Of a stretch of DNA of 64,000 bases, positions 20,546 through 37,853 are shown in pieces. The DNA is taken from contig CADCBO010000004.1 in the NCBI GenBank assembly GCA_902799685.1, positions 1-64,000 on the forward strand, read 5' to 3'. A program made the position numbers and the translations under genes. Position 1 is the stretch's first letter. Each line of letters starts with the position of its first letter. The DNA comes from an uncultured Bacteroidales bacterium. Its GTDB lineage: Bacteria > Bacteroidota > Bacteroidia > Bacteroidales > Bacteroidaceae. The notes beneath the pieces are model-generated. The model was not told where the DNA came from, made no database searches, and saw only the letters and a program-made list of their open reading frames with translations.

Positions 20546-20707
20546 ATGAAAAGAACATTTCAGCCTTCCAACAGGAAGAGAAAGAACAAGCACGGTTTCC
20601 GTGAGAGAATGGCCACAGCAAACGGCCGCAGGGTACTTGCTTCACGTAGAGCCAAGGGCCGCAAGAAACTGACAGTATCTGACGAGTACTGCGGAAACAA
20701 GAAGTGA
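20546..20707 (+). CDS. rpmH: 50S ribosomal protein L34
   Basis: The 53-residue basic protein begins [20 protein letters not shown] and contains [15 protein letters not shown], the L34 signature; the C-terminal tail SDEYCGNKK is a few residues longer than in E. coli. L34 is a late-assembling large-subunit protein. The usual neighbour rnpA is absent, so this is a lone gene with its own promoter and terminator. Confidence 0.97.
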
Positions 20708-20785: not shown

Positions 20786-21484
20786 TCAATTGGCCAATGA
20801 GTAAAGATATTCCACCACTTTATAGAGGTCCTCTGCCTTACGCCACTTTATCTTGTTTGACTTAAGGAAAGACTTCCATTCGCTGTTACCTGAAAGGTTG
20901 AACTCTTTTTCAACATCCTTCTGATATGCAGGACAGCCGGTATTCCTGATTTTAATATAAAGTTTCTCTTTTGTTGAGAGAGATTTGCCGGAATCCTCCT
21001 TCTTTTCGGCCAGCAGTTTTGCATGACTGACCACATTCTTTCCGCCTATCTCAAGCGATGTCTGACTTCTGACAGCCTGCGTATTGGCGCTTGAGCCGTA
21101 TGCGCCGGAGCCCACATACAAGGCCTCAAAATCGCCCAGTACAGAAAGCAGCACAAAAGCCTTGCGGGATTCATTCTCATCCAGGACTTTCATCATGCTT
21201 TTACCCACAACCACATATTTGTCTGTACCTATTACAGCATAATCAACATTCCTCAAATCCGTAGTCATGATCACGTCACCTTCCAGATACTGAAGCTCGC
21301 CTTCAGCCAGATGCACATTCAGTTTGGCTTTGATTGCATTCCCGTCATTATACATTACCAGTCCGTCGGTAAAATTCTCATAAATGTACGGCCACATTGT
21401 GGTGGGACTGTACTCTGCCTTTACAAAAGAGCAAAACAGAATTGACAGCAGTAGAAACGCTGTTCTTTTTATGTAAAACTTCAT
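20786..21484 (-). CDS. Secreted protein of unknown function, coupled to the C10 protease
   Basis: The 232-residue protein has a Sec signal peptide (MKFYIKRTAFLLLSILFCSF, cleavage near VKA). The mature part starts with a beta-rich half (YENFTDGLVMYNDGNAIKAKLNVHLAEGELQYLEGD) and ends with a lysine-rich, helical half including KIRNTGCPAYQKDVEKEFN. I do not recognise a named family. Its ATG overlaps the TGA of the upstream C10 protease gene (ATGA at 21484-21481), so translation is coupled and the products are likely made together. C10 proteases in other bacteria often have an inhibitor gene beside them; this protein could play that part, but no inhibitor motif is visible. Confidence 0.6.
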   Translation of the reverse strand: MKFYIKRTAFLLLSILFCSFVKAEYSPTTMWPYIYENFTDGLVMYNDGNAIKAKLNVHLAEGELQYLEGDVIMTTDLRNVDYAVIGTDKYVVVGKSMMKVLDENESRKAFVLLSVLGDFEALYVGSGAYGSSANTQAVRSQTSLEIGGKNVVSHAKLLAEKKEDSGKSLSTKEKLYIKIRNTGCPAYQKDVEKEFNLSGNSEWKSFLKSNKIKWRKAEDLYKVVEYLYSLAN

Positions 21485-23034
21485 CTTATTACCACTTTGG
21501 TTTTCTTACTTGTTCCGTCAGGCTGTGTCTGGACACGGATATAGATACCCGGCTCCAAATCTGTTTCCGAAGAATTGATTTTCACGCCCGATATGGAATA
21601 GAACTCCTGTTTCTGCTCTCCCGCAACACTTATCACCTCCGTATCATTGGAAACAGTCAGGACAAAATCCCTTTTCAGCGACTCGCCCTCCATTGTACTG
21701 ACAGTGATTATCACTTCATACTCATCGCCGGCATTCAATGACTGGGTGGAAACCAGCTCCTGATTAAAATTAACCTTAAAAGGTACGGAAGCATATTTAC
21801 GCGTTACAATGTTATAAGGGCCCGTTATCTTGAAATTGTACAAACCCTCTATGTCACTCTTGACATACACCTTTGAAAGCGGTGTTCCTGCCGGTAAGCC
21901 TGCCTGTAATTCGGTTGTTGACAGAGTTAAATCCAATGGCGCTGCAGACGGTTCCTTTACTCCTATAACAACACCGTGGTCTGCGTCATAATCCATCTTC
22001 ATGTAAACGTCACGTAACCCGTCTATAGGGAAATAACCGTTGTTTGAACCGCCCCATCCCCAGTTAACATGAAACAGCGCGCCGTCATAGCCGTCAATAT
22101 TGAAACAGTGTCCATAGCCACCCTTTGTATCGGTTCCGGAATAGACAATTGCCCTGCCGGCCTGCAGCTCCTCCAAAAGCAGTTTGCTCCAATCTCCTGT
22201 ATAAGAATCCCTGGATATATACTGGACTGTATTTGATGAATATCCAAAATTCCTGACCAATGCGTTTGCAACTCTTGATGTGAATGAACCTGAGCCATCC
22301 ACCCCATAGTTCATGGCAACGGAGACGCCGCAATGATATAGCAGGTGAGCCACCCAGACCTTATTGTCGGCACCGGAAATGATCTTGTCCCAATCATACG
22401 GTTCCTCCTGATCATAGTCAATTGAAATGATTCCGTACTTGTTGTGCCTGTATGAGAAAGTACCGTTAGGCTTGGGCGGCCATTGTGCCACACTCATAGC
22501 CTGCGCCATACCGACTGCCACACACCCTACAACTGCCGTACCGTCATCGTCCGAAGGACAGAATACATTATAAGGACGGCCCTGGTTCCAGTTTACCTTG
22601 ACCAGGGGTTCTATCTGACCTGAAGCACGGTTATGGGGTCTGGACGGAAGCTCCCAACCCGACACAGTCTTGTCATTGTCCCTTATGGCATCGGTAATCT
22701 GCCTGGTGTAATATTCCATCCACTGGGCATGGTTTGTCATGTCCGGATCATTCACATACTCACCCTCCGGATTATATCCCAACAAAGGCTTGACACCGTC
22801 CTGTGCCGATACAAGGACCCATCCCTGAGGATTCATGTTAACAATGTAATATAATGCATTCCCATCTTTAGAGACGCATTTGATATCTCTGACCGAGAAG
22901 TTATCATAACCTAACGATGAGAAATAATCCACGGCGAACGTACGTGCACGCCGGGAATCAACCTCTGCTGCTGCCGCATTATAGAAAACCGAAAAGGACA
23001 GCCAGACCAACAATAATAAGTTCTTAGTTTTCAT
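21481..23034 (-). CDS. C10 family cysteine protease (streptopain-like) with sorting-type tail
   Basis: From the ATG at 23034 the protein has 517 residues: signal peptide (MKTKNLLLLVWLSFSVFYNA), a propeptide of the Spi-like type, then the C10 catalytic domain with cysteine C171 in VGCVAVGMAQ and histidine H309 in GHCFNIDGYDG, and NWGWGG near 327-332. Streptococcal SpeB and the Bacteroides bfp and Prevotella interpain enzymes belong here. The last ~80 residues form a beta-sandwich region and end with FYSISGVKI...PGIYI...KKTKVVIR, which resembles type IX sorting tails. It has its own promoter (23044-23074) and is separated from the SusCD operon by a terminator. Confidence 0.88.
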   Translation of the reverse strand: MKTKNLLLLVWLSFSVFYNAAAAEVDSRRARTFAVDYFSSLGYDNFSVRDIKCVSKDGNALYYIVNMNPQGWVLVSAQDGVKPLLGYNPEGEYVNDPDMTNHAQWMEYYTRQITDAIRDNDKTVSGWELPSRPHNRASGQIEPLVKVNWNQGRPYNVFCPSDDDGTAVVGCVAVGMAQAMSVAQWPPKPNGTFSYRHNKYGIISIDYDQEEPYDWDKIISGADNKVWVAHLLYHCGVSVAMNYGVDGSGSFTSRVANALVRNFGYSSNTVQYISRDSYTGDWSKLLLEELQAGRAIVYSGTDTKGGYGHCFNIDGYDGALFHVNWGWGGSNNGYFPIDGLRDVYMKMDYDADHGVVIGVKEPSAAPLDLTLSTTELQAGLPAGTPLSKVYVKSDIEGLYNFKITGPYNIVTRKYASVPFKVNFNQELVSTQSLNAGDEYEVIITVSTMEGESLKRDFVLTVSNDTEVISVAGEQKQEFYSISGVKINSSETDLEPGIYIRVQTQPDGTSKKTKVVIR

Positions 23035-23043
23035 ATCAAACGG

Positions 23044-23074
23044 CAAATTTATAGCAAAAAACCATAAGTTCAAA
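23044..23074 (-). promoter_or_regulatory. Promoter of the C10 protease gene (very short leader)
   Basis: On the minus strand -33 TTTG (23071-23074) and -7 TAAATTTG (23044-23051) are 19 bases apart. Only 9 bases separate the -7 box from the ATG, so the mRNA leader would be a few bases at most. Confidence 0.75.
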
Positions 23075-23085
23075 CCCTATGTAAC

Positions 23086-23121
23086 AAAAAATCCGGCGGT
23101 ACTGGACCAGCCGGATTTTTT
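23086..23121 (-). terminator. Terminator of the leftward SusCD operon
   Basis: AAAAATCCGGC and GCCGGATTTTT pair across a 12-base loop (23098-23109). Read leftward it ends in a T-run and lies about 35 bases after the last lipoprotein gene. Confidence 0.85.
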
Positions 23122-23155
23122 ATAATAGGATAATGTTTTCAGTTTACTGTCACTT

Positions 23156-25186
23156 TTACTCCATATCTGTTATTTCTAACGGAGCGCTTCTCTTAGCAGC
23201 TCTTACTGAAGCGGTTACTTCAGGAATATATGGCTTAAGTATCAGGTCACCCTCGGAGAGTGCGAGCCAGCCTTTGCCAACCCCATCCAGAGTTGCCTGA
23301 ATACCCCACAATATATTATTTTCGGAATCAGAACCATTTGCTACAGCTGATCCGTCTGGAGAACAGGTAAATGTAATATCAGCCAGATCATAAGTGCTAA
23401 TATAGCAATCGTAAGTATTTTTATATACTCCTGCGAACTGCCAGTCAGGAATTACAAGCTTACCGTCAATTGAATCAAAATAAGCCACAATCTCATTACC
23501 CTCAAAATAGAAGTCCTTAATTACAAGTGATGTGTCTGCATCGGCAATAGTGCAGGTGATAGTATCTCTTGTATCGGGATCATCATCAAAATAGCTGTGG
23601 AAAATCCACTGGTAGGAACCTACCATGAGATTATTGGGATAGTTTAAACTCTGGTCGGCGGAATACGATGCAAGAACGTTCATTGAATAATCCATCCAAC
23701 CTTGCTGACCTGTAGAAGGAATAACTACATACTGTCCTATCTCTGCGGTCTCTGAAGATGAGAATGTCTTGAGTGCAGGATTATACTGAAGCTGTGCATA
23801 ACCGTCGCTGCGTCCGGTTGCAAAATAAACATCCCTACCCATAGACTCAATAGAGTACATGTACTGGAAATCTTCTATATACAGTATTGCCAGATCACCG
23901 TCAAAATCTGCCGAAAGAACAGTGTTGTCAGAGAACAGACGGCTAACCTGCAATCCATCGGCAGAGCGGGTTATCAGCATACTGGTCTCTTCAACTGCTC
24001 CGGTTGCAGCACTCAAGTACTGGACATCATAAACGCCAAGTATATCATCAACGGTAAGACCGTAGCTGCGCATCCATGCTTCGTTCACCTTAAATTCCTT
24101 GTTGGGGTTTCCGAAAGCATCAACGACAGCACCCTCGGGTACGGTGAATGAAATCTTGGAACCATACTCCATCTCCTTATAGAAAGAGAATATGATAGCT
24201 GTATCGTTTACATCCCACTGGGCAGGAAGCTTTGTCTCAATACCATCTTTGGTATAGAACATGTTAATGACAGGCTGTGCATCATTCTCATCATAGTTGA
24301 TGAACATGGGCTTTTCATAACTGATAGTGGGTTGGAACACGGTATAATCAACAAAAGGTTCACCAAGACCAAGCACATCTGATACGGAGAATCCGAACGG
24401 CTCGTTCTCCATATAGAAGTAGCAACCGTTGGCCACCCTTCCGGTAGTCATGTTGATCTCAGTGACATTGGCATTGCAGTTGTTGCCCTTCAGGTCCTTA
24501 AAGGCACCGGCCTCCCATGATACAAGCACAAGTGCACCTGCGGGAACGCTGTCACAAGAAATGCTCACGTTCTTTCCGTCAACACTGCAGTTAATGAACT
24601 TGCTGTCTATATCACCGGTCACCGACAGGTCAAAGGGTGCATAGTACTTGGCAGTAATCTTGCCTTCACCACGCTGCATAGGCTCTGAGAATGCCACAGA
24701 GAATGAACCGGCATCACCAGGAGTGGCCTTTGAAACGACGGGAGACAGATTATCAGTTGTCAACACAGAAGTACCTTTAACAGAACTAACCATTCCGAAC
24801 TTGTTGGATACAACAGCCACAAATGTGTATGAAGTGTTAGGCATAAGGCCGGGATAGCTGAACGTCAACGTACCCAAACCAGTAGCAAGTGTATCAGCAT
24901 TAAACTTCTGAACACTCTTGGCACTTACATTGCCCTTGAGCAGAGACATGGAATCCGGATACTCAGCTGCAGCAAGGTTATCATTGATAAGAGCCACAGT
25001 AAAACGAGTGGTATTGGCCCTGTCAATAACAAGCTTGAAAGTAGCGGAGCTGTCTGCCACAGCAACATTATCAACCGAGAACTCCGGAGCCGGAGCATAC
25101 GTCTCAGTGCTAGGTGCATCAAACTTGGTACATCCCACCATCAAGATGGTCAGTAACGCTGTAATGCTATAAATTGATTTTTTCAT
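23156..25186 (-). CDS. Multidomain surface lipoprotein of the leftward SusCD operon
   Basis: The 676-residue protein has a lipoprotein signal (MKKSIYSITALLTILMVGC) and mature start CTKFDAPS. An Fn3-like domain (roughly 30-145) and an Ig/Big-like domain (LSPVVSKATPGDAGSFSVAFSEPM and on) precede two longer beta-rich modules. Domain layout and position last in a susC-susD operon suggest a surface ligand-binding lipoprotein, but I cannot assign the ligand. It is translated 19 bases after the Calx-beta lipoprotein gene. No enzyme domain is seen. Confidence 0.65.
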   Translation of the reverse strand: MKKSIYSITALLTILMVGCTKFDAPSTETYAPAPEFSVDNVAVADSSATFKLVIDRANTTRFTVALINDNLAAAEYPDSMSLLKGNVSAKSVQKFNADTLATGLGTLTFSYPGLMPNTSYTFVAVVSNKFGMVSSVKGTSVLTTDNLSPVVSKATPGDAGSFSVAFSEPMQRGEGKITAKYYAPFDLSVTGDIDSKFINCSVDGKNVSISCDSVPAGALVLVSWEAGAFKDLKGNNCNANVTEINMTTGRVANGCYFYMENEPFGFSVSDVLGLGEPFVDYTVFQPTISYEKPMFINYDENDAQPVINMFYTKDGIETKLPAQWDVNDTAIIFSFYKEMEYGSKISFTVPEGAVVDAFGNPNKEFKVNEAWMRSYGLTVDDILGVYDVQYLSAATGAVEETSMLITRSADGLQVSRLFSDNTVLSADFDGDLAILYIEDFQYMYSIESMGRDVYFATGRSDGYAQLQYNPALKTFSSSETAEIGQYVVIPSTGQQGWMDYSMNVLASYSADQSLNYPNNLMVGSYQWIFHSYFDDDPDTRDTITCTIADADTSLVIKDFYFEGNEIVAYFDSIDGKLVIPDWQFAGVYKNTYDCYISTYDLADITFTCSPDGSAVANGSDSENNILWGIQATLDGVGKGWLALSEGDLILKPYIPEVTASVRAAKRSAPLEITDME

Positions 25187-25205
25187 AATTCAAAAGCTTT
25201 AATGA

Positions 25206-26213
25206 TTACTTCTTTTTCAGGGTTACGCCATTAAGGTATATATCGTTCCATGAATTGGAACCTACGCCTTCTGCAGAATAAATCTGAGAACCATAAGCAT
25301 CCACAATAGTTATGGTTGCATCAGGAGCAATAGTGGCATTAATGAACTCACCCTCAGGAATAACGTCATCATCATTGTAAATGTCACGGAAACCATCAAG
25401 TGTTGCTTTCCTGCCGTCACTATATAGACCTAGAACCTGTCTGACAGGAATCTTAAGTTCTGTCTTATCCTCATTTACGATACCATATACGGAACGAGGC
25501 ATACCGCTCACGAACGGCTGTATCCAAACCTTGTTGAGGTCACCGTCAGGATCCTTTGTAATAGTCAGATCCCAGATTGTTGCACCATTGAAATATGACT
25601 CGCCCTGAGCACCGAATGTACCAAGCATGAATGCAAGAGGATGCTCATCGTCGGCTACAGTAACCTCACATGACTTGCTGGCGCCAAGATTTGCGCCCTG
25701 AGCGTTCTTAAGATTAATGGTGAAGTAGGTGTCGCCTGCGAAATAATCATTATCAATTGCCTTGATATAAATGGTGTCTGAATACTGCTTCTTGGTGAAA
25801 ACCAACTTATTGCTGTCAGTAAAGGCAGGATCGGCAAGGCAGTTTGTGGAGAAGGTGAAGTGTACACCCTCCTTGGCACCCGTGTCAGTTGTGTCATAGA
25901 CCACTGAATCCTTATAACCGATAATAGAATCGGCAATAGTGGCATGCATAATCTCAATCTTTAATACAGTAGAGTCTATCTTGATTGCCCTTGGAACAAT
26001 CTCAAACTCCACAGATGCATCAATACCATCCAGTGATGAACAAAGCACTTCAATCTTTACCAGATTGGAATCATTTTCTGTAACCGTGGCAGTGGAACTC
26101 GTAAAGGCTATAAAGGAGTCCGATGCCTTAAAGGTAGGCAATTCATTCTTTTCACACCCCACAAGAAGGAATGCAACAGAGAGAACGCCGAACAAAATAT
26201 TTCTTAATTTCAT
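25206..26213 (-). CDS. Calx-beta-domain lipoprotein of the leftward SusCD operon
   Basis: From the ATG at 26213 the protein has 335 residues with lipoprotein signal MKLRNILFGVLSVAFLLVGC and mature start CEKNELPTF, whose acidic residues after cysteine fit surface export. Residues ~25-190 look like a Calx-beta-type beta sandwich (SFIAFTSSTATVTENDSN, EGVHFTFS, VFTKKQYSDTIYIKAIDND), and the C-terminal part is a further beta domain seen in Bacteroidales nutrient-binding lipoproteins. A GTG nine bases upstream is possible. It lies between susD and the long lipoprotein gene. Confidence 0.7.
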   Translation of the reverse strand: MKLRNILFGVLSVAFLLVGCEKNELPTFKASDSFIAFTSSTATVTENDSNLVKIEVLCSSLDGIDASVEFEIVPRAIKIDSTVLKIEIMHATIADSIIGYKDSVVYDTTDTGAKEGVHFTFSTNCLADPAFTDSNKLVFTKKQYSDTIYIKAIDNDYFAGDTYFTINLKNAQGANLGASKSCEVTVADDEHPLAFMLGTFGAQGESYFNGATIWDLTITKDPDGDLNKVWIQPFVSGMPRSVYGIVNEDKTELKIPVRQVLGLYSDGRKATLDGFRDIYNDDDVIPEGEFINATIAPDATITIVDAYGSQIYSAEGVGSNSWNDIYLNGVTLKKK

Positions 26214-26236
26214 AACATTCACTAATTTGAGGGTGA

Positions 26237-27655
26237 TTAATAAGGATTCTGCACCATATTAGGATTAGCATCGCACTCTGCCTTAGGAATAGGCATAGCC
26301 CATATATTGCCAGGGAATGCAACATCCTTGTTCTGGGTGGCGCGGAAGTCTGTACGGGTAATGCTCTTGCCCAGACGCTTGTAGTCAAAGAATATGTGAC
26401 CTTCAAAAGCAAGCTCCCTGCGACGCTCGTTGAATATGGTCTCTACACCGGGAGATACCTGAGAAGCTCCACGGGCATCGGTAATGGCATCAAGGTCATT
26501 CTGAGCCGAAACACCTGTAATGCTGGCACCGTTGTAGATAGCCTCAGCGCGGTTAAGATACATCTCAGCCAGACGGAGCACAGGAACATTATTCTCCTTG
26601 GGGTCAACTGAACCGGGCTTGCCGGGATACTTCAGGATGAAGTGGTCAGCCTCGTTGTCAACAAACAAAGACTTACGCACGTCATTATCCTCATAAAGGT
26701 TATAGAGATCATTGGTGGCGCATACATCAGCACTACCTTCTATAGCTGTAATATAGGGAAGCATGGTCCAACCTGAATCATCCCATGAACCGTTCTTCTT
26801 TGAAGAATAGATTTCAAATATCACTTCACCGCCCTTGTCGGCAATGCTCTTGCCCCACATTTCGGTATAACCGGCTTTGCTGGCCAGCTTGAACTTCTTG
26901 GAGTTAATGACAAGTGTAGCATAGTCAGCAGCCTTCTGCCACTCACCCATATAAAGATATACACGTGAAAGCAGAGCCTGGATAGCAGGCTTGGTTACGG
27001 TTGCCAGAGGATCAGTAACCTGTGCACGCTGGTAGTTGTCACTCATAAGAGACTCAGCCCTGAGAAGGTCGGCTACAACCTGGTCATAAACTTCTCCTAC
27101 AGTATTACGGGCAGGTGAACCGATGCTGGATTTAAGCAAGACAGGAACACCAAGCTCATTTCTGTTAGCTCCTGCCAGATAAGGCTGAGCATAGACGTTA
27201 ACCAGCTGGAAGTGGCAGAAAGCGCGCAGGAACAGGCACTCTGCCTCAAGGTTATTGACATTCTCCTGTGTAACGCCGGAGCCTACCTTACCGCCCAGAT
27301 TGGCAAGTACGTTATTGGCAGCGTTTATGGTGTAATATGCAAGAGCCCATGTTGACCATGTTGAACTCTCGGTAAAACTCCAAGGTTCGGGAGTCCTGTA
27401 ACGGCCTGAACCGGGAAGAGATTTGGGGTTTGTGGCATTTCCGGCCATAAGCTCACCGTTAAGAATGAACTGACAACCCATCCAGCTATTGCTCTGGAAA
27501 TAGTAGTAAACACCAGCAGTTGAATTGTCCAAACCTTCAAACTTGGACAGTGTAAGTTCATTGCTCTGAGACAGTTTGGGTTCCTCTACGAGGAAATCCT
27601 TACATGATGCTGTGACAAGTGTCAGGGCAGCAAGATAAATTATTGTCTTTTTCAT
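26237..27655 (-). CDS. SusD/RagB family nutrient-binding lipoprotein (leftward operon)
   Basis: SusD-type lipoproteins form the lid over the SusC barrel at the cell surface. The 472-residue protein has lipoprotein signal MKKTIIYLAALTLVTASC and mature start CKDFLVEEPK, tetratricopeptide-like helices (FLRAFCHFQLVNVYAQPYL, ALLSRVYLYMGEWQKAADYA) and the C-terminal RagB-type block VLRLAEMYLNRAEAIYN with NERRRELAFEGHIFFDYKRLG. These features place it in the RagB/SusD PF07980-PF14322 group. It starts 13 bases after the susC stop. Confidence 0.93.
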   Translation of the reverse strand: MKKTIIYLAALTLVTASCKDFLVEEPKLSQSNELTLSKFEGLDNSTAGVYYYFQSNSWMGCQFILNGELMAGNATNPKSLPGSGRYRTPEPWSFTESSTWSTWALAYYTINAANNVLANLGGKVGSGVTQENVNNLEAECLFLRAFCHFQLVNVYAQPYLAGANRNELGVPVLLKSSIGSPARNTVGEVYDQVVADLLRAESLMSDNYQRAQVTDPLATVTKPAIQALLSRVYLYMGEWQKAADYATLVINSKKFKLASKAGYTEMWGKSIADKGGEVIFEIYSSKKNGSWDDSGWTMLPYITAIEGSADVCATNDLYNLYEDNDVRKSLFVDNEADHFILKYPGKPGSVDPKENNVPVLRLAEMYLNRAEAIYNGASITGVSAQNDLDAITDARGASQVSPGVETIFNERRRELAFEGHIFFDYKRLGKSITRTDFRATQNKDVAFPGNIWAMPIPKAECDANPNMVQNPY

Positions 27656-27668
27656 ACTTTCGCCTTAT

Positions 27669-30644
27669 TTAAAATGAAAGATCAAGACCTACAACAAATG
27701 ACTTTGTCATAGGATATATACCATATCCCATACCGTCAATACCGCGTTCAGGATCCCAGAAATCAACATTGTGGAATGTATATACATTCAAGCCGCTGGT
27801 ATAGATCTTGCAGCTGCTTAACTTGGCCTTGCTGATTATATTGCGGGGGAGTTCATAGGAGAGTGTGATATCCTTGATACGGAAGTAATCTCCGTTCTCA
27901 ATGAATCTGTCTGTGCTGAAACTATATGAGTTTGTAGAGTTACCGGCAATAGGCTTGGGGTTGACACCGGTGTCACCCATCTTCTTCCAGTAATTGAGCT
28001 CTGTCGAAGACTGGTTCATTGACATCTGGTTACCGTCGGAATGCAGGTAACGGTTCTCAATAATCATGATCTTGTTACCGCCCTTGAATTCGCCCACTGC
28101 ACTCAGGGTGATACCCTTCCATGATACGGAAGTGCTTACACCACCTGTATATGTGGGTTCAGGACTGCCAGCCTCAATGTAGCGTGCCTTATTGTAGTCA
28201 TTTGTAAGAGAACCGTCTTCGGATACAAACAGAGCCTCACCGTTAATAGGATTAACTCCATAGTAGTCTAACAGATAGAATGTAAGAAGGCTGTTGCCTA
28301 CGATATGCTTAAGACGGCTGTCCTCTGAATAGTTGAGCATCTGGTCATCACCCAGGTCAAGAATCTTGGTCTTGTTGTGTGAGATGTTGAAACCTACTGT
28401 CCAGTTAAGATCCTTCTTGTCAATGACATCATAGTCAATCTGGAACTCAATACCCTTGTTCTCCATCTTACCTATGTTCATAAGGGCGCTGCCGAAACCT
28501 GATGTTCTGGAAAGAGACTTGTTAAGAAGCATATCCTCGGTTGTACGGGAATAGATATCAATGCTACCGTAAAGTCTCTTGAAGAAACGGAAGTCCAGAC
28601 CTACGTTATATGACCTGTTCTTCTCCCATGAAAGGGTAGGATTGGCAGGTGTGGAAGGATACATTCCGCTTACGCCGTTGTAAGCCACGGTTGTATAGAG
28701 ACCGTACTGGCGGTAAGGAGAAATGTTGTTGTTACCGTTAAGACCGTATGACAGACGAACCTTGAGAAGGTCAACTGCATCAACGCCGCTCATGAACTTC
28801 TCATTGTGGATGTTCCAGCTGGCACCTACTGAATAGAATGTACCCCAGCGGTTCTCTTCACCAAACAATGAACTGCCGTCTTCACGGATAGAAGCCTGCA
28901 GATAATAACGTGAATCAAAGTTATAATCCAGAATACCGAAGAAAGACAGCATGGTCCTGCGGTTTGTTGAATAATCAACATCGTTAGTGGTATTGCCGCC
29001 AGTATGATAAGGTATATCAGGATTCAGGTTCTCGGCAGACTCATAGAAATAGCCGTAATCACGTGAGTTAGCCTCCTGACCTGCAAGTACACGCAGATAA
29101 TGCTTCTGGAAGGTGTTCTCGTAAGTAGCCGTATTTGATGTAGTCAGAAGGTGGTACTGAACCTGTGAAGTCTGAAGTGTAGCGGACTGGTTCTTGCCTG
29201 AAAGCGGTGACCAGTAACGGCGACCCTCGTTGAATGTCAGTTCAGCAGCATTTGTTGTCTTGAATACCAGACCCTTGACAGGCTTGAACTCCAAATACAT
29301 GCTTCCGTTGAAACGGTACTGCTTCTCCCACTGGTCATCATACTCGGCTGTGGCGCGGGGGTTGGTATTGGAGTTTTCAGGAATCTCAATGGTATGAGTT
29401 CCGTCGGCATTGTATGCAGGCGACCAGGGAAGTATGGTCATGCCGGCAAATGCAGGGTTAGAATAGTAAAGGCTCTGCATTGGGACATCCTGATTGTACA
29501 TATAACCGGCATTGATACGGGTACCTGTGGTAAAGTACTTGTTGATCTCATGGTCGGCATTGATACGTGCCTGGAACTTATTGAATGTAACTCCGTAATA
29601 CACACCGTCGTTCTTGTGATATGATACAGAGCTGTAGTACTTGGTCCTTGAAGAACCACCGGTCATGTTAACCTCATACTCCTGCATCTGGCCCAGACGC
29701 GTAAAGTGGTCCATCCAGTTGGTCTGAGGCCTGGAAAGGAGCTCGTACGGACGGTAATATGTAGCGTTGGGGTCATCAGGATCCATTCCTGCATTCACGA
29801 TGGCGTCACGCTGATAGGAAAGCAGCTCTGCACCATTCATTATGCGGAAATTGTTGTCATTGGCAAGTGATGAAACACCATACTTGGCACGGGCGGTGAT
29901 TACGCTCTTGCCCTCCTTACCGCTCTTAGTGGTAATAAGGATGACACCGTTAGCGGCACGTGAGCCATATACGCTTGCCGAAGCGGCATCCTTAAGGACT
30001 GTAACGCTCTCGATATCATCGGGGTTGATCATTGCTATGGCGTTGTTGGTGTTTGTGAACACACTCTGGTCACCGTTCATTACGGGAACACCGTCAACAA
30101 CATACAGAGGCTCATTGCCAGAGTTGATTGAGGATGTACCGCGGATACGGATGCTGGTTGATGAACCGGGCTGACCGGACTGTGAAGTGATCTGCACACC
30201 AGACATCTTACCTGAAAGCATCTTGTCTATTGACGATGCGGGGATAGTAGTAATCTTGTCCGATGTGACAGAAACCACGGATCCTGTCTTGGCCTCACGC
30301 TTGGTAGTACCGTAAGCCACAACCACCACGTCTTCCAATACCTCTGCGTCCTCATCAAGTTCTACTGTTACGTTAGCAGAGACGGGAACTTCCTTGGTAT
30401 GCATACCAAGATATGAAATCACCAAATTCTTAGCCTCTGCAGGAAGCCCAGTCAATTCGAACCTACCGTTCAAGTCAGTTGCGGCACCCATTGTAGGTAC
30501 CTCCTTGACAACGACTGACGCGCCTATGATCGGCTCTCCATCTGTACTGCTGGTTACCTTACCGGTCACCCTTGCAGTCTGAGCTGTTATTGCGCTTATA
30601 CCTAAAAGAATACAAGACAATAACATAGTCAATCTTTTCTTCAT
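27669..30644 (-). CDS. SusC/RagA family TonB-linked outer-membrane importer (leftward operon)
   Basis: The 991-residue protein has a signal peptide (MKKRLTMLLSCILLGISAIT, ending near TAQ), an N-terminal carboxypeptidase-regulatory-like beta domain (ARVTGKVTSSTDGEPIIGA...), a TonB-box-like VVVVAYG stretch, the plug (SGKMSGVQITSQSGQPGSSTSIRIRGTSSINSGNEPLYVVDG split over 145-190) and a 22-strand barrel ending in SFVVGLDLSF. It forms the pore beneath the SusD lid. It is the first gene of the leftward operon. Its promoter and the end of its leader are near copies of those of the divergent susC. Confidence 0.94.
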   Translation of the reverse strand: MKKRLTMLLSCILLGISAITAQTARVTGKVTSSTDGEPIIGASVVVKEVPTMGAATDLNGRFELTGLPAEAKNLVISYLGMHTKEVPVSANVTVELDEDAEVLEDVVVVAYGTTKREAKTGSVVSVTSDKITTIPASSIDKMLSGKMSGVQITSQSGQPGSSTSIRIRGTSSINSGNEPLYVVDGVPVMNGDQSVFTNTNNAIAMINPDDIESVTVLKDAASASVYGSRAANGVILITTKSGKEGKSVITARAKYGVSSLANDNNFRIMNGAELLSYQRDAIVNAGMDPDDPNATYYRPYELLSRPQTNWMDHFTRLGQMQEYEVNMTGGSSRTKYYSSVSYHKNDGVYYGVTFNKFQARINADHEINKYFTTGTRINAGYMYNQDVPMQSLYYSNPAFAGMTILPWSPAYNADGTHTIEIPENSNTNPRATAEYDDQWEKQYRFNGSMYLEFKPVKGLVFKTTNAAELTFNEGRRYWSPLSGKNQSATLQTSQVQYHLLTTSNTATYENTFQKHYLRVLAGQEANSRDYGYFYESAENLNPDIPYHTGGNTTNDVDYSTNRRTMLSFFGILDYNFDSRYYLQASIREDGSSLFGEENRWGTFYSVGASWNIHNEKFMSGVDAVDLLKVRLSYGLNGNNNISPYRQYGLYTTVAYNGVSGMYPSTPANPTLSWEKNRSYNVGLDFRFFKRLYGSIDIYSRTTEDMLLNKSLSRTSGFGSALMNIGKMENKGIEFQIDYDVIDKKDLNWTVGFNISHNKTKILDLGDDQMLNYSEDSRLKHIVGNSLLTFYLLDYYGVNPINGEALFVSEDGSLTNDYNKARYIEAGSPEPTYTGGVSTSVSWKGITLSAVGEFKGGNKIMIIENRYLHSDGNQMSMNQSSTELNYWKKMGDTGVNPKPIAGNSTNSYSFSTDRFIENGDYFRIKDITLSYELPRNIISKAKLSSCKIYTSGLNVYTFHNVDFWDPERGIDGMGYGIYPMTKSFVVGLDLSF

Positions 30645-30764
30645 AGATAATTTAATTATAAAATTTAGTTTGACAATAGTTTTCTATGCATTTTCACCCT
30701 CTTCAGAGTCGGGGTGTAAATTTGACTTGGATTTTTATCATAATACCTATAGTCCTTAATATCG

Positions 30765-30786
30765 GGCAAAATTACACATTTTGCAT
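30765..30786 (-). promoter_or_regulatory. Promoter region of the leftward SusCD operon
   Basis: On the minus strand the 22 bases contain ATGCAAAATGTG followed by the -7 box TAATTTTG (30774-30767). Twenty-one of 22 bases equal the promoter region of the divergent operon at 30985-31006. No TTTG -33 box is seen at the usual distance, which suggests help from an activator or another sigma factor. Confidence 0.7.
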
Positions 30787-30984
30787 TTATATCAGACATT
30801 TTTCATAAAAAAATATTAAACACAGGCCATATCATATAACAAACCGCACATATTCTGCCCACAAATCTCCCTTTTTTTCTTATGAAACTACTCATTAAAT
30901 AGCATATTTATTCTATAGTTATTCCTTTTTATAAATGAAAGCCTGTTGAACAACAACTTTTTTTTCAAAAAGATTAATAAAACA

Positions 30985-31006
30985 ATGCAAAATGTGTATT
31001 TTTGCC
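30985..31006 (+). promoter_or_regulatory. Promoter region of the rightward SusCD operon
   Basis: ATGCAAAATGTG precedes the -7 box TATTTTTG (30997-31004). The block is nearly identical to the minus-strand block at 30765-30786, and again lacks a clear -33 TTTG. Confidence 0.7.
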
Positions 31007-31123
31007 GCATATATAAGGGTGCAAAATTGACAGAAAGATGTATAAATATCCAGACAAAAAAGCTGCACCTTTTTATATGAATAAAATGCATTGAAAACTA
31101 TTGTCAAACTTAACAAATTATCT

Positions 31124-34100
31124 ATGAGAAAGATTCTCTTAATGATGACTGCAATTCTGAGTGCAGGTCTTGCTTTTGCTCAGGAAATGCAAGTTACGGG
31201 AATTGCCACTGCCGCTGATGACGGAAGTCCCATGCCGGCGGTTTCAGTTTCTGTTCAGGGAACAAGTAGAGGTACCACAACCGATCTGGATGGTGCCTAT
31301 ACTATTTCAGTACCTTCAAACGGCACACTGGTATTCTCATTCATGGGTTATGAGGATGCTATGGTACCCGTAAACGGAAGGAAAGTGATTAACGTGACTC
31401 TGAATCCGGGTTCAATCCAGATTGACGAGGTGGTAATCACTGCTCTGGGTATATCAAAGGCAGAAAAGGCCATTGGTTATGCCGCAACAACCATAAAGGC
31501 TGATGACATCATTTCGGCACGCACCACAAACGTTGCCAACGCATTGGCAGGTAAAGTGGCTGGTGTACAGATCCAGTCAACATCAAGTGATCCCGGTGCT
31601 GCCAGCAACATCATAATCCGTGGTTACAACTCCATTTCAGGCAGCAACCAGCCTCTTTATGTAGTGGATGGTGTGCCATTGCAGAATACCGTAACCTATT
31701 CCGGTGAAAAGAGCACATCTCTGGGCGGTATAAGCAACATCCCGTCGGAGGATATCGAGTCCATGACTATCCTTAAAGGTGCCGCCGCTACCGCATTGTA
31801 TGGAAGCCGTGCCGCCAATGGTGTTGTGGTAATAACAACCAAGAACGGTAAAAAAGGCCAGGGACGCAACTACACAATTGAGTACAGCGGAGGCATGCAG
31901 TTCCGTCAGGTATCCGTATTCCCCGATATGCAGAATGATTTCGGACAGGGATGGAACGGCACACAGACTTACATAGAGAACGGTTCTTGGGGTCCTGCAT
32001 TGGACGGCTCCACCCAGGTCTATGGTCCTATCTGGAACAACCAGCAGAGAATACACAAGTATTCGGCTGTTCCCACAAACGTCAAGGATTTCTTTGACAT
32101 AGGCATATCAAACAACCACACCGTATCATTGAGCGGTATTTCTGATGACAGCAAGATGACATACTTCCTGTCATATTCGTACAATAAGGACGATGGTATC
32201 ATGCCGTCTGACCATGATGTATTTAAGCGTAACACCATTGCGTACAGGTCAACATACCAGGCTGCCAAATGGCTCAAGCTCTCATCGTCAATGAACTTTG
32301 CACGTTCAGAAAGTGACATTGTACCCACTTTCCAGGGTGCATCTGTAATTGACGGTCTGTATGAGCTGCCCCGCGACATATCCATCTATGACATGAGGGA
32401 TCTGAGCAATGCCTTCAACACTCCTGAGGCATACCTTACTCCTTACGGAATCACCAACCCATACTGGGCTATAGAGAACAACTATAACCACAACAACTCA
32501 AAGCAGGTGTTTGGTAAACTGCAGCTTGACGTTAATCCCATCAAGGAAATCACTCTGACATACCGTATGGGATTTGATTATACTGATTATGACCGCAAGG
32601 TGGGTTATCCTGAAATAGCCCTTGACGACGCTCTGATTCAGAATGATTACGGATATGCGCCATCTAACATGAACCAAAGCGGATATGTATTTACAAACTA
32701 CGCCCGTAGCTATGAGACCAACCATGACTTCCTGGCCAACTACAGTAACAAGTTCGGAGATTTTGATCTGGGAGTTGTTGTAGGCGTAAACATCAATGAA
32801 AGAGGCAATACTCTTATGAACGGTGAGACCGACAAGCTTACTTTCGCATCCGGATTCTGGGACCTGAGCAACGGTGCCACCAAGACCACCCTTGAGGAAT
32901 CACAATCCAAGAGACGTCTGATAGGTGCGTTTGCCGATATCAACTTAGGCTGGAACGACCTTCTGTTCCTGGAACTGACCGCACGTAACGACTGGTCATC
33001 AACACTGCCTGTAAATTCAAACCACTACTTCTATCCCGGCGCTACCTTGAGCTGGCTGTTCAGCAACATGCTGGAGGATGACGATATTCTCTCACACGGT
33101 AAACTCCGTCTGGCTTATGGTAAGACCGGTAATGATGCTCCGGTATATAGGACATCGGCTTCATACGTACAGGCATTCGCCAACGGTTACTACTATTCGT
33201 CTATGGCCCAGTTCCCAATGAGCGGTACAAACGCTTTCATGAAGAGTGCAACCATGGGCAGCAGCACCTTGAGCCCTGAGATGACGACCGAATTTGAAGC
33301 AGGTCTGAATCTGGAATTCTTCAAGGGCCGTCTGGGATTGGACGCAACATTCTACAACCGCACTACCGATGACCTTATTTTCTCACTACCCGTTGACCCA
33401 GCCACCGGTTACCAGAGAATGTACACCAACTTTGGTTCTATCGGGAACAAGGGCTTTGAGCTGGTACTTAACACCACTCCCGTCGAGACACGTGATTTCC
33501 GTTGGGATTTAGGTTTCAACTTCTCCAAGAACTGGAACAAGGTGCTCTCATTGCCTGAAGGACTTGACGAAGGCAAGAGCGTAATCAACAGCTTCTCGGC
33601 TGGAAACGATGCCGTTTATGTATATGCCGAGGAGGGTAAGCCCCTTGGACAGTTCTACACATATCTCCCCTCTTACACTGCCGACGGCAAGATTATAGTT
33701 GACACTGACGGACAGCCCATTCTCAGCAAGGAGGTTATGGACACCGGCAAGAACATGCAGAGTGACTGGACAGGAGGTATTACAACCTCACTTTCATACA
33801 AAGGCATTTCATTGAGCGCAGTTCTTGACATACGTTATGGAGGATATATGTTCTCACGCACCAAAAACCTTATGCAGTTTACAGGTAACGGCGTGGTAAC
33901 AACCTACAATGACCGCAAGCCTTTTGTGATTCCCAACTCTGTAGTTGAGGTGGCAGAAGGTGATTATCAGCCCAATGAGACTCCCATATATCTTGCCAAC
34001 AGCAGCTATCAGGATTATTTCAATGAGTACGGTGCAGGACAGGGAGGTGAATTCTATCTGATAGACCGCTCCTTTGCAAAGCTGCGTAACATCAGCCTTT

Positions 34101-34324
34101 CATACTCCTTCCCCAAGAAACTTGTCAAGCCACTGTCTCTGAGCGGTCTGACCATGACAGCGTTCTGCAACAACCCGTTTATCTGGACAGCCAAGACCAA
34201 CAGATACATCGACCCGGAAACCACTTCTTACGCTGATGACGGAGACCTGGGTTCACAGTTCGGTGAGCTGTACTCCAATCCTGCCTGCCGCACATACGGT
34301 TTCAACATTAACATCACATTCTAA
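31124..34324 (+). CDS. SusC/RagA family TonB-linked outer-membrane importer (rightward operon)
   Basis: From the ATG at 31124 the protein has 1066 residues: signal peptide MRKILLMMTAILSAGLAFA ending at AQ, regulatory-like domain (MQVTGIATAADDGSPMPAVSV), TonB-box-like DEVVITALG, plug with IIIRGYNSISGSNQPLYVVDG in two parts (about 160-185) and a barrel ending in YGFNINITF. It differs clearly from the leftward SusC in length and sequence, so it is not a recent copy. The frame can be opened at a TTG 33 bases earlier, but the ATG starts the signal peptide. The leader is shared in sequence with the divergent susC. Confidence 0.94.
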   Translation: MRKILLMMTAILSAGLAFAQEMQVTGIATAADDGSPMPAVSVSVQGTSRGTTTDLDGAYTISVPSNGTLVFSFMGYEDAMVPVNGRKVINVTLNPGSIQIDEVVITALGISKAEKAIGYAATTIKADDIISARTTNVANALAGKVAGVQIQSTSSDPGAASNIIIRGYNSISGSNQPLYVVDGVPLQNTVTYSGEKSTSLGGISNIPSEDIESMTILKGAAATALYGSRAANGVVVITTKNGKKGQGRNYTIEYSGGMQFRQVSVFPDMQNDFGQGWNGTQTYIENGSWGPALDGSTQVYGPIWNNQQRIHKYSAVPTNVKDFFDIGISNNHTVSLSGISDDSKMTYFLSYSYNKDDGIMPSDHDVFKRNTIAYRSTYQAAKWLKLSSSMNFARSESDIVPTFQGASVIDGLYELPRDISIYDMRDLSNAFNTPEAYLTPYGITNPYWAIENNYNHNNSKQVFGKLQLDVNPIKEITLTYRMGFDYTDYDRKVGYPEIALDDALIQNDYGYAPSNMNQSGYVFTNYARSYETNHDFLANYSNKFGDFDLGVVVGVNINERGNTLMNGETDKLTFASGFWDLSNGATKTTLEESQSKRRLIGAFADINLGWNDLLFLELTARNDWSSTLPVNSNHYFYPGATLSWLFSNMLEDDDILSHGKLRLAYGKTGNDAPVYRTSASYVQAFANGYYYSSMAQFPMSGTNAFMKSATMGSSTLSPEMTTEFEAGLNLEFFKGRLGLDATFYNRTTDDLIFSLPVDPATGYQRMYTNFGSIGNKGFELVLNTTPVETRDFRWDLGFNFSKNWNKVLSLPEGLDEGKSVINSFSAGNDAVYVYAEEGKPLGQFYTYLPSYTADGKIIVDTDGQPILSKEVMDTGKNMQSDWTGGITTSLSYKGISLSAVLDIRYGGYMFSRTKNLMQFTGNGVVTTYNDRKPFVIPNSVVEVAEGDYQPNETPIYLANSSYQDYFNEYGAGQGGEFYLIDRSFAKLRNISLSYSFPKKLVKPLSLSGLTMTAFCNNPFIWTAKTNRYIDPETTSYADDGDLGSQFGELYSNPACRTYGFNINITF

Positions 34325-34342: not shown

Positions 34343-35851
34343 ATGAAAAAGATTATATTTGCATCAGCTGTTGTAATCGCATTAGGCACAGCCTCTTGCT
34401 CTGATTATCTGGACATAAACCAGGATCCCAACGCTCCGGCCGAAAAGGATGTGTCAACCGACATGATTCTTCCCGCCGTAGAGATGAACCTTGCCGCCAC
34501 ATACGGAGACTATTTCCGCATTACCGGCGGATACTACGCACAGATATATGCCCACCAGTTCGGTACAAGCAACTATGTGGACTATTCACAGTTCAAGATG
34601 TCTGCAACCCGTAGCAGCGGCAGTTACACGCAGCTCTACCAGAAAGTTCTCCAGAACGCCAAGACAATAATCAGCAAATCAGCCGAAGAGGAGGACTGGG
34701 GTACATATATTGCAGCCGTTACTTTACGTGCCTTTGCTCTTGAAGCCTTAGTCGATGTCTATGGAGAGATTCCATATACCGAAGCTCTTGACCCAAGCAA
34801 CCTCACACCCAAGTATGACGAAGGTGAGGATGTTTACAAAGGTGTCATTGCTGAACTTGACGAAGCTATTGCAAAGGCTGCAATCACAATGCCGGTTGCC
34901 ACCAATTTCATATTCAAAGGACAGAAAGCCGACAAATGGATCAAGTTTGCCAAGTCACTCAAGTTCAAGATGCTGATGCGCATGGGAGACACTGCATCCG
35001 CCAAGGCACTTGTTGATGAGAACGACTTCATTGATTCAGATGTAATGCTGGCCGGTTGCTGGAAACAGGAGGCACAGCAGGAAAGCCCGTTCTATGCTGA
35101 GGAGTTCTCCACCCTGGGAGGTTCCACACAGATTAACGTGGTTGCAAACCTGGCTATCATAGGCACTATGCTTCAGAAAGACATTGACGGAAACGTGATT
35201 TATCAGGATCCGCGTCTGACCAGCTATTTCACCCCCAATTCATCGGGCGAATTTGTAGGAAACATTTCGGGCAGCAACATGAGTACCGCTTCAGCACCTT
35301 TCAACACCACAGCTTATTGGTGCCGCCCCGTTGCCAGCTTTGATATGCCGGTATATTTCCTCACTGTTGCAGAGATTGACTTCTTCCTGGCAGAGTATTA
35401 TGCAAAGGCAAATGATGCCGCAAAAGCCGCCAGCTACTATCAGGAGGCAATTGAGGCATCGTGCGCAACAAGCGGAATCGGAGCCTCGGCTGCTGCAACC
35501 ATACTTGCCCAATATCCCTATGACAACGACAATTTCAAGGAATGCATAGGAATACAGAAGTGGATTGCTATGGCCGGTATCAACCCGTTCGAGGCTTATT
35601 GCGAAGTACGTCGTCTGGACTATCCCGCATTTGACACTACACTGACAGGAAATGACATGTATGCCGGTAAGGGTGCCCTGAACACAGATGGCTACATACC
35701 CGGAACACTCTACACTCCCTATGATGTGGAAGCTGAATTAGGTGCCAACAAACTGCTTGAACGTTGGCCTTATGCTGAGTCATCACAGTCAAGAAACGCA
35801 AAAACGCCCAAATTCAAGGGTTACAGTACTCCTATATTCTGGGGTAAGTAA
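34343..35851 (+). CDS. SusD-like lipoprotein, PF12771-type (rightward operon)
   Basis: The 502-residue lipoprotein (MKKIIFASAVVIALGTASC, mature CSDYLDINQDPN) belongs to the second SusD branch, recognisable by DYLDINQDPNAP, the N-terminal helices around GDYFRITGGYYAQIYAHQFG and KWIKFAKSLKFKMLMRM. The C-terminal half has YFLTVAEIDFFLAEYYAKAN and the CIGIQKWIAMAGINPFEAYCEVRR stretch split across 395-420. The serine-aspartate after cysteine fits a surface-export signal. It is 18 bases after susC and preceded by a Shine-Dalgarno-like GGAGG. Partner of the SusC encoded just before. Confidence 0.93.
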   Translation: MKKIIFASAVVIALGTASCSDYLDINQDPNAPAEKDVSTDMILPAVEMNLAATYGDYFRITGGYYAQIYAHQFGTSNYVDYSQFKMSATRSSGSYTQLYQKVLQNAKTIISKSAEEEDWGTYIAAVTLRAFALEALVDVYGEIPYTEALDPSNLTPKYDEGEDVYKGVIAELDEAIAKAAITMPVATNFIFKGQKADKWIKFAKSLKFKMLMRMGDTASAKALVDENDFIDSDVMLAGCWKQEAQQESPFYAEEFSTLGGSTQINVVANLAIIGTMLQKDIDGNVIYQDPRLTSYFTPNSSGEFVGNISGSNMSTASAPFNTTAYWCRPVASFDMPVYFLTVAEIDFFLAEYYAKANDAAKAASYYQEAIEASCATSGIGASAAATILAQYPYDNDNFKECIGIQKWIAMAGINPFEAYCEVRRLDYPAFDTTLTGNDMYAGKGALNTDGYIPGTLYTPYDVEAELGANKLLERWPYAESSQSRNAKTPKFKGYSTPIFWGK

Positions 35852-35871: not shown

Positions 35872-36552
35872 ATGAAAAAATATTTATTATCTACAATTGC
35901 GCTGTCAGCTTTATTGCTGACCAGTTGTGAAAAGGAGTCAGAAGGACTGACCCGTACTACATATTATCCTGTTCTTAATGTTGTTGGCGGTTCGGTAGTT
36001 ATGTCTATAGGTGATTCTTACACAGAACAAGGTTGCACGGCAATTCTTAATGGTGTAGATGTTACAGACAAGATAAAAACTACAAATAATATTGACAATA
36101 CAAAGCCCGGAGTCTATTCCGTCAACTATCTCATTGTCAATGAAGACGGATTCGCCGCGTCTGCCAGCAGAAATGTTTATGTGACTAATGGCAAAAACTT
36201 TGATAATCTCTATCTGTCGGAGTGTCAATACGGATCAAGGCACTACTATGACCTTCCTATCAATATTGTTGACAATGGTGACGGAACTTACCTGATTGAT
36301 GACATCCTGGGAGGTTTTTATGCATTAGGAAGATATCCAGGTTATCCATATGACTTCTATGCTGAAGCAGTAATTCAAGTAAATCCAGACAACAGCATTT
36401 CACTTGTTAGTGTAGGAAGTTGGTATTTTTCCCAATACGAAATATCTATAGTAACGGGTGTTTATGACCCAGCAACTTGTACTATCACTTTAAATCTTGA
36501 TTTTGACGGTGACCCGGTCTATGTACAACTAGTGGTGCCCGGTAATAACTAA
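35872..36552 (+). CDS. BT_2262-like lipoprotein with Ig-like and DUF5012-type domains
   Basis: The 226-residue lipoprotein (MKKYLLSTIALSALLLTSC, mature CEKESEG) has an N-terminal Ig-like DUF5011-type domain (VVGGSVVMSIGDSYTEQGCT, KPGVYSVNYLIVNEDGFAAS) and a C-terminal beta domain with DNGDGTYLIDDILGGFYA and YDPATCTITLNL. This order matches the lipoproteins that follow susCD in the Bacteroides BT_2261-2264-type operon. It likely sits on the SusCD complex at the surface. Base composition is more AT-rich than the preceding genes. Confidence 0.75.
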   Translation: MKKYLLSTIALSALLLTSCEKESEGLTRTTYYPVLNVVGGSVVMSIGDSYTEQGCTAILNGVDVTDKIKTTNNIDNTKPGVYSVNYLIVNEDGFAASASRNVYVTNGKNFDNLYLSECQYGSRHYYDLPINIVDNGDGTYLIDDILGGFYALGRYPGYPYDFYAEAVIQVNPDNSISLVSVGSWYFSQYEISIVTGVYDPATCTITLNLDFDGDPVYVQLVVPGNN

Positions 36553-36569
36553 TACAATATTAGACAGAT

Positions 36570-37118
36570 ATGAAAAAAACAATATTTTTGGCTATTGCAG
36601 CCATAGCATTGAGTCTTGTTTCATGCGAGAAAGAGGAACCGGGTGGAACCGCTACTCAGTCTCTTGCCGGTGATTGGGTATGCACGGTATATTATTCCGA
36701 CGGTGTCAAGTGGAATATCTACATGGGCCTTGACCTTCTTACATACAACACTTCGGCCAATCTGTCTTCCGAGATTTGGTTGGATGACGTTGAATCTTTC
36801 TGGGGAACCCTCTGCAAGGTAAACAGCAACGCAGATAACATGACCTTTGGAGCTAAAGATTCTATCTACACAGACCAATACAATGATGTAGGTCAGAAAA
36901 TCTGGGGCGGTAAAGTTACTCCTAACGGTGCAGTAGGACCTACCGGTAAAAACGTAGATAAGATTGAATACTACATCCAGTTTGGGGACGAAGAAGATGA
37001 TGAGGGTCTTAATCCATATGGAACCACATTTTATGTTGTAGGTTACAGAAGGACAGGCTTTGATGAAGGCAATGCAGATCAGCCAAAGGAAGATTGGACA
37101 CTTCCCGAAGTTATCTGA
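36570..37118 (+). CDS. Lipid-binding-like lipoprotein (BT_2261-like), last gene of rightward SusCD operon
   Basis: The 182-residue lipoprotein (MKKTIFLAIAAIALSLVSC, mature CEKEEPGG) has the small beta-barrel pattern of PF12888-type proteins: LAGDWVCTVYYSDG, LLTYNTSANLSSEIWLDD, FYVVGYRRTGFD. The acidic stretch after cysteine fits surface export. It follows the DUF5012-type gene by 17 bases and closes the operon; a terminator lies at 37147-37191. Ligand unknown. Confidence 0.72.
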   Translation: MKKTIFLAIAAIALSLVSCEKEEPGGTATQSLAGDWVCTVYYSDGVKWNIYMGLDLLTYNTSANLSSEIWLDDVESFWGTLCKVNSNADNMTFGAKDSIYTDQYNDVGQKIWGGKVTPNGAVGPTGKNVDKIEYYIQFGDEEDDEGLNPYGTTFYVVGYRRTGFDEGNADQPKEDWTLPEVI

Positions 37119-37241: not shown

Positions 37242-37853
37242 ATGGCTAAAGGAAAAAACGGTAAAGGACGCGGTATGGTTATCATACTGCTCAATGTGCT
37301 GGCAATGGTTGTCATAGCTACCATCCTGGTGCTTCTGACATTCCGATGGATCAAATCATACACTCTTCACGGACAGTATATTGCTGTGCCGGATATAACA
37401 GGCATGTATGAGGAGGAGGCCGCAAAGGCTCTTGCTGCGGCAGGACTCAAGTATGAGGTATCGGACTACAAATATGACAACCAACTGGTGGAAGGCGGAG
37501 TTATAGAGCAGAAACCAAGACCGGGCGCATACGTAAAGGAGGGGCGCAAGATTTACCTCACGCTCAATTCCGGCAAGGAGCCCGTCAAGGCTGTACCCGA
37601 CCTGGCCGACAACAGTTCATTGCGTGCCGCCGAGTCACAACTGCTGGCTGCCGGATTCAAGCTGACCGAAACGGAATACATAGACGGAGACCTGGACTGG
37701 GTATATGAAATAAGGTATAAAGGCAATGAGATAAAGGCTGGAACCGAAATCCCTGTAGGTTCCGTGCTCACAATCGTGGCCGGAAACGGCATTCCGGTTG
37801 AGGAGATTGAGGAGACAGACTCACTGACTTTGATTGACTCTGATTTCTTTTGA
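37242..37853 (+). CDS. Membrane-anchored PASTA-domain protein
   Basis: The 203-residue protein has a short basic N-terminus, one membrane span (VIILLNVLAMVVIATILVLL, about 13-32) and two periplasmic PASTA domains: YIAVPDITGMYEEEAAKALA...YLTLNSG and KAVPDLADNSSLRAAESQL...LTIVAGNG. PASTA domains usually bind peptidoglycan fragments on penicillin-binding proteins or kinases; here no kinase domain is fused. An acidic tail follows. It starts an operon with a pseudouridine synthase, ddl, an acyltransferase and a NigD-like gene; a -7 box TACTTTTG lies at 37209-37216. A wall-related role beside ddl is plausible. Confidence 0.85.
   Translation: MAKGKNGKGRGMVIILLNVLAMVVIATILVLLTFRWIKSYTLHGQYIAVPDITGMYEEEAAKALAAAGLKYEVSDYKYDNQLVEGGVIEQKPRPGAYVKEGRKIYLTLNSGKEPVKAVPDLADNSSLRAAESQLLAAGFKLTETEYIDGDLDWVYEIRYKGNEIKAGTEIPVGSVLTIVAGNGIPVEEIEETDSLTLIDSDFF

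Follow-up and report, generated by a model that had tools for sequence, protein, structure and literature searches.

The two divergent susC genes of the window (the entire 64,000-nt stretch of DNA analyzed here) share promoter and leader sequences in inverted orientation, and we consider it moderately probable that their common leader forms part of the junction at which a SusC/SusD phase-switch slot recombines; this slot lies between efp-rpmH and the gene for a PASTA-domain protein. In three relatives (G026, G029, and G030), a tyrosine integrase is located between two divergent susC genes in this slot. This head-to-head layout with a flipping enzyme in the relatives suggests an on/off switch, of which the enzyme is absent in the window.

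First, we focus on the intergenic region of the window (Table 1). A first-pass annotation had described promoter and leader blocks common to both susC genes, and its coordinates and counts hold: the 22-base promoter blocks agree at 21 positions and the 28-base leader blocks at 27, with one base different in each pair. The two ATGs, before which it had also noticed a matching sequence, are covered by AAATTATCTATGA, a 13-base perfect inverted match. The inverted repeat of the window comprises 31 nt (94%) with 388 nt between the arms, and the 18-base core of the leader block occurs at two places in the window compared to 0.02 expected (≤3 mismatches). Counted from the respective ATGs, the promoter consensus TAnnTTTGC is positioned at -127 (plus operon) and -130 (minus operon), which fits leader lengths of roughly 115-120 nt and thus the ~120 bases estimated earlier. 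Between promoter and block, the similarity of the two leaders is weak, with identity at 42 columns over 70-76 nt and an equally high score in 18 of 500 shuffles. Over positions -80 to -1, they are 66% alike as compared to a background of 60 (sd 6; 211 pairs with class and genome both different). Being near background, the leaders were either homogenized long ago in this stretch or are constrained in the blocks only. The minus susC has the junction element in common only as far as the ATG. A sigma-70 scan of the intergenic region returned three promoter hits with 3.5 expected, and a terminator scan found a single terminator-like site (0.3 expected), which falls within the start of the plus susC coding sequence. 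In an Rfam scan of the window, the single match at gathering score is a tRNA elsewhere in the window, and three hits of a relaxed scan are at chance level; an Rfam leader element was rejected for want of a credible family match.

Table 1. Coordinates of the two operons, their shared sequences, and the border genes of the slot in the window.
Feature	Position	Strand	Remarks
Leader block, minus susC	30667..30694	-	≤3 mismatches: two places in the genome in total
Leader block, plus susC	31083..31110	+	18-base core near-matches before the slot susC in 10 other genomes of the genus
AAATTATCTATGA over start codon, minus copy	30641..30653	-	13-nt perfect inverted repeat
AAATTATCTATGA over start codon, plus copy	31115..31127	+	13-nt perfect inverted repeat
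Promoter block of minus operon, TAATTTTGC consensus at -130	30765..30786	-	21/22 compared to plus copy
Promoter block of plus operon, TATTTTTGC consensus at -127	30985..31006	+	21/22 compared to minus copy
Predicted leader hairpin of plus operon	31008..31079	+	z -2.28, z -3.18
SusC, class D	27669..30644	-	TIGR04056; 75% aa identity with the one slot susC of G024 and of G032
SusD partner, minus operon	26237..27655	-	PF14322, PF07980
Remainder of minus operon: no-Pfam protein, Big_5 protein, C10-family peptidase with Spi-type inhibitor domain, no-Pfam protein	20786..26222	-	
SusC, closest solved structure BT_2264	31124..34324	+	
SusD partner, plus operon	34343..35851	+	PF12771
Remainder of plus operon: BT_2262-like protein and Lipid_bd protein	35872..37118	+	
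efp, left border gene of the slot	19801..20367	-	
Presumably rpmH (ribosomal protein L34), core gene nearest the slot on its left side	20546..20707	+	Name assumed from the translation
Gene for PASTA-domain protein, bordering the slot on the right	37242..37853	+	

The best matches of the minus SusC are a SusC homologue and RagA, and the gene order in the remainder of the minus operon is the same beside the class D susC in G032. The C10-family peptidase with its N-terminal Spi-type inhibitor domain (21481-23073, minus strand) lies within this SusC/SusD operon; homologues are encoded by the class D operon of G032 and by the efp-carrying contig of G024. The plus operon resembles the BT_2261-2264 SusCD system, which provides the closest solved SusC (5fq6), in its BT_2264-like SusC and its BT_2262-like and Lipid_bd genes, but differs in standing head to head with an unlike SusC/SusD operon. 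Both operons may import peptides, judging from their likeness to these relatives.

The genome of the window (G000; 2.81 Mb, 85.8% complete) has five full-length susC genes above the TIGR04056 family cut-off. The 28-base block precedes two of these, both in one slot, while the DNA upstream of the other three was read and has no block. The search of this genome and of related genomes that had been proposed with the annotation yields two places for each block in G000 and no third copy of either (≤3 mismatches). A generic susC leader is rejected, as the block stands before only two of the five genes. Among the 37 genomes of the genus, the 18-base core is found at 20 places in 14 genomes (≤2 mismatches), 15 of which are before the susC of the same slot, in 11 genomes; the other five are in different contexts as judged by sequence reading alone.

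The gene order efp-rpmH-[slot]-PASTA gene can be followed across the genus, the PASTA gene being present in 36 and efp in 34 of the 37 genomes. Slot states were counted in the 30 genomes with efp and the PASTA gene on one contig. The slot is empty in 11 of them, with an interval of about 0.45-0.54 kb that is too short for an operon (the eight intervals printed all contain rpmH; G028, G034, and G018 are known by length alone, as their efp start is unrecognised). In 18 genomes, the slot carries SusC/SusD operons that are unlike each other, with a single susC in 15 and a divergent pair in three (G000, G026, and G030). The slot of G007 spans 24 kb with no recognised Sus gene (L070, L071; G007:C9:35100-60700), and its content may mark a general insertion spot or a rearrangement site. 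Outside of this count, the two susC genes of the G029 pair are on separate contigs, each ending at the repeat, G002, G024, G004, and G012 have one susC each with borders not on one contig, and G016 and G003 are unreadable at the slot. The named contigs with this gene start (12 stretches) belong to uncultured Bacteroidales or Bacteroidaceae, and their sources, where stated, are ruminants or horse.

The integrases between the divergent susC genes of G026 and G029 match Phage_integrase and Arm-DNA-bind_5. The G030 integrase is 38% identical, and both this integrase and its leader are unlike those of the other pairs. The inverted repeats of the three pairs span both leaders and the gene starts and measure 319 nt (80%), 92 + 27 nt (100%), and 371 nt (89%), which are lower bounds because some arms stop at the end of the searched stretch or of the contig. 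In all three, TAnnTTTG occurs on the 5' side of the integrase and not on the 3' side. Hence a promoter directed to one side is present in these relatives and absent in the window, where the consensus stands on both sides. As far as can be read from sequence, a one-sided promoter, inverted repeats, and an integrase are the anatomy of an invertible promoter segment.

Integrase homologues occur in six of the 393 genomes of the order (E <= 1e-60). Six of the seven closer homologues outside the slot lie beside susC or susD, the seventh (G398) does not. Those of G018 (46%) and G294 are located between divergent susC genes, in G294 with a 113-nt inverted repeat (95%). At the G018 locus (L101, G018:C41), which has the order susC-integrase-susC, 22-nt inverted repeats at 95% flank the integrase. 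Another homologue beside susC is broken by a stop codon (L113, G201:C1). Six more distant homologues of the genus (24-34%) have no Sus gene within about 1.5 kb. Since susC is common in the order and this small control is limited to the six homologues of the genus, we use the association of integrase and susC as supporting evidence only.

The SusC proteins of the slot form classes A (G026R, G029R, G002, G033, G004, G013, G014), B (G029L, G010, G005, G017, G023), C (G026L, G025), D (window minus, G024, G032), E (G030L, G006, and also G012), and F (G030R, G031). Identity is 64-97% within classes and mostly about 28-55% between them, considering the best six partners per gene, with G004 and G023 as partial sequences; the susC of G012 was left out of the class-identity, leader, codon, and body-swap comparisons. 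Compared over full length, the plus SusC of the window is nearest to that of G009 (54.6%; best six partners listed per gene), and the remaining SusCs are singletons. Of the eight operons that make up the four pairs, seven have a class found as a single operon in another genome.

In these relatives, the leader follows the genome and not the gene. Over -80 to -1, the two leaders of an integrase pair are 98, 100, and 100% identical within the genome despite different SusC classes, while leaders of the same class in different genomes are 50-71% identical. G010 and G011 share 79% over the 168-nt upstream stretch -200 to -32 and 30% over the SusC body, as compared to 82% upstream and 93% over the body for G010 and G005, and the PASTA genes of these two pairs are about equally related (77 vs 78% nt). 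Similarly, G026L and G029L share 71% upstream and 31% over the body. According to these comparisons, recombination close to the start codon joins leaders to different SusC bodies. The swap evidence is limited to conserved leaders with changed bodies and to identity within genomes; the low upstream identity of same-class susC genes across species is not used as proof of a swap because non-coding DNA may diverge faster. The proposal that regulatory DNA is kept or copied apart from coding DNA is thereby strengthened, and it gains further from class D, as the block is absent in G024 and G032, the two relatives of the minus operon at 75% aa.

The element at the putative junction is best seen in the eight single-susC genomes with the block, which are 94% identical at -31 to -1 (28 pairs) and 56-57% in each of three 31-base stretches upstream. 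These genomes were chosen by a pattern over -31 to -14; the unselected stretch -13 to -1 lies outside this pattern and is 95% identical. Eight other single-susC slot genes reach 60% at -31 to -14 and 55% at -13 to -1, near the 50-52% of their upstream DNA, so the idea that the slot generally conserves the element does not hold; all 16 genes together give 70 and 65%. In the genes with an MRK start (19 of 24, with G023 and G004 left out and genes without the block included), agreeing residues share the codon in 92% for codons 1-9 and in 45-60% later (145 pairs).

In G026 and G029, AATTGTCTATGA is present at the susC start and as a third copy inside the integrase cassette, near the integrase end. 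The two 11-mers of AATTGTCTATGA are the only ones with three copies in G026/G029, and any 12-mer of the element appears in the cassette in 39 and 44 of 2000 shuffles. As the two cassettes are homologous, their third copies are one observation and not independent. Both copies in the window carry the same change relative to AATTGTCTATGA, namely AATTATCTATGA. Two AATTGTCTATGA copies of G026 (L057, 9345-9356 and 10797-10808) flank integrase and promoter as direct repeats. If they recombined, the integrase would be lost, which may be one way to arrive at integrase-free pairs such as that of the window.

In the phase-switch reading, the slot is taken up by different SusC/SusD operons in different species. 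Each would be attached close to its susC start to the promoter and leader of the site, and in many species the joining point would be the conserved element from about -31 to codon 9. In the head-to-head pairs of the relatives, one promoter and the tyrosine integrase lie between inverted copies of the junction, and the integrase would act on the element. The middle segment would then flip and thereby choose which importer gets made. The window has the same layout with promoter and leader on each side, and a flip of its 388-base middle would change little because nearly equal promoters are exchanged. With no integrase and a promoter consensus on each side, the window is probably an integrase-free form in which both operons are transcribed and thus ON. 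It may descend from an integrase-bearing ancestor or, alternatively, represent an integrase-free stage.

No recombinase was found in the window and no integrase homologue either in the window (E 1e-3) or in the 85.8% complete assembly of G000 (E <= 1e-20). A search for an integrase relic in the 601 bases around the intergenic region gave only a 7-residue match at chance level (E 2.2). As candidates for a recombinase acting in trans, six PF00589 proteins are encoded on other contigs of G000. One-mismatch part-copies of the element, TATTGTTAAACT in L128 and GATTATCTATGA in L131, lie within about 1.5 kb of PF00589 proteins, and we judge these near-copies to be chance.

Control at the RNA level is the main rival to the phase-switch reading. 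The block would be a translation-start or sRNA target, where a FopS-like sRNA or an RNA-binding protein contacts both leaders and co-controls both importers. We consider this unlikely, at odds of a kind that still call for attention: the element extends as far as the translation start, and eight single-susC genomes retain it although their slot has no integrase, hence something other than the enzyme must preserve it there. Together with the eight other genomes that lack the element, this leaves room for a role in RNA or translation. In B. thetaiotaomicron, FopS/RbpB control of susC mRNAs is described, with FopS sRNAs that pair at susC mRNA starts and repress them, so that the contact region is likewise at the susC translation start (PMC11697453). 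FopS is reported on several PULs, whereas the block was found before two of five full-length susC genes in G000 and in one slot across the genus; a target shared by several separate operons is thus absent, with the proviso that a short seed could be missed.

The leader hairpins bear on the same question. A hairpin before the block had been proposed for each leader, of which that of the plus leader is supported (z -2.28; z -3.18 and 2 of 200 shuffles in a second run) and that of the minus leader is not (z -0.53; z -0.24 and 66 of 200 shuffles). In the plus leader, the 5' end and the bases directly preceding the block form a stem with 15 outer pairs, which is longer than the hairpins of G005, G008, G010, G011, and G017. 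The block directly follows a leader hairpin in which two double compensatory changes occur across five genomes, which favors RNA-level control, but 26 of 500 shuffles reach this covariation. Support for the hairpin as a general feature is modest, with a mean z of -0.95 over 24 of 26 leaders (G029R was too short and G023 has N runs). Moreover, RNA-level control matches no credible Rfam family and leaves the 98-100% identity of whole leaders in the integrase genomes as well as the swapped bodies unexplained.

A second rival places the control in the DNA. Both promoters might hold one operator, the near-palindrome GCAAAAT-gtgta-ATTTTGC, that answers to one transcription factor. The palindrome is read as exact on the minus strand and with one mismatch on the plus strand, and the promoter bases common to both sides have no other copy in G000. 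However, no regulator family, HTCS and ECF sigma/anti-sigma included, was detected among the 20 neighboring proteins scanned beside the pair, and none of the nine matches to the 22-base promoter block in other genomes (≤3 mismatches) is on the slot contig stretch. The leaders of relatives that were read differ upstream of the consensus, as expected from promoter copying inside this genome. We therefore regard a shared operator as improbable. The first-pass annotation had supposed that one regulator or one leader-binding RNA or protein governs both importers. This supposition loses ground, since the recombinase between the genes in three relatives of like arrangement explains leader sharing without a common regulator, although for an RNA the small probability given above stands. 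As a third rival, a single susC operon could have been duplicated together with its leader in inverted orientation, with later divergence of the proteins. This would fit the neighborhood of two SusC/SusD operons whose leaders are similar in part, but is very improbable because the minus SusC shows 75% identity to the only slot susC of G024/G032 and 28-31% to other classes among the matches listed, and its class lacks the block in those two genomes.

Inversion systems for SusC/SusD are already known, and the slot is a new variant of these. In Bacteroides fragilis, Tsr0667 is reported to drive shufflon-type DNA inversion of SusC/SusD (Nakayama-Imaohji 2009, via PMC4747536, PMC11852207). These sources describe SusC/SusD operons, a DNA invertase, and an expressed importer chosen by inversion, as proposed for the slot, but with one invertase that serves three SusC/SusD clusters and nine other regions. 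The integrase of the relatives is instead located between head-to-head susC genes in one slot, and the repeat covers the susC start; in the window, the enzyme is absent and a promoter stands on each side. This comparison concerns layout and not enzyme kinship. The nutrient-receptor shufflons of B. thetaiotaomicron also express alternative receptors through recombination and are described as using a single transcription factor (PMC12548429), whereas no such factor is among the proteins scanned beside the slot. SusCD orthologues and regions near susC/susD homologues appear among listed invertible regions in two further sources (PMC12632263, PMC10939037). Our literature search found nothing closer to the slot, which does not establish that the slot is absent from publications.

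The reported SusC/SusD inversion concerns human gut Bacteroides, while the slot belongs to uncultured gut Bacteroidales, from ruminants or horse where a source is stated. One and the same slot can be compared across the genus in its empty, single, paired-with-integrase, and paired-without-integrase states. Such a comparison allows tests of how pairs of switchable importers come together and disappear, and of whether the start-codon region of a gene can contain a recombination site. On this last point, we tentatively suggest, while thinking it rather doubtful, that the ~58-bp element over the susC start codon might be recombination site and translation start at once. The slot would then be a fixed expression site for plugged-in SusC/SusD operons behind one promoter, leader, and signal-peptide start, either singly or as a switchable head-to-head pair, and the window would be the integrase-free double-promoter form in which formerly alternative importers are now constitutive partners. 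If true, importer repertoires would evolve by cassette exchange at the gene start.
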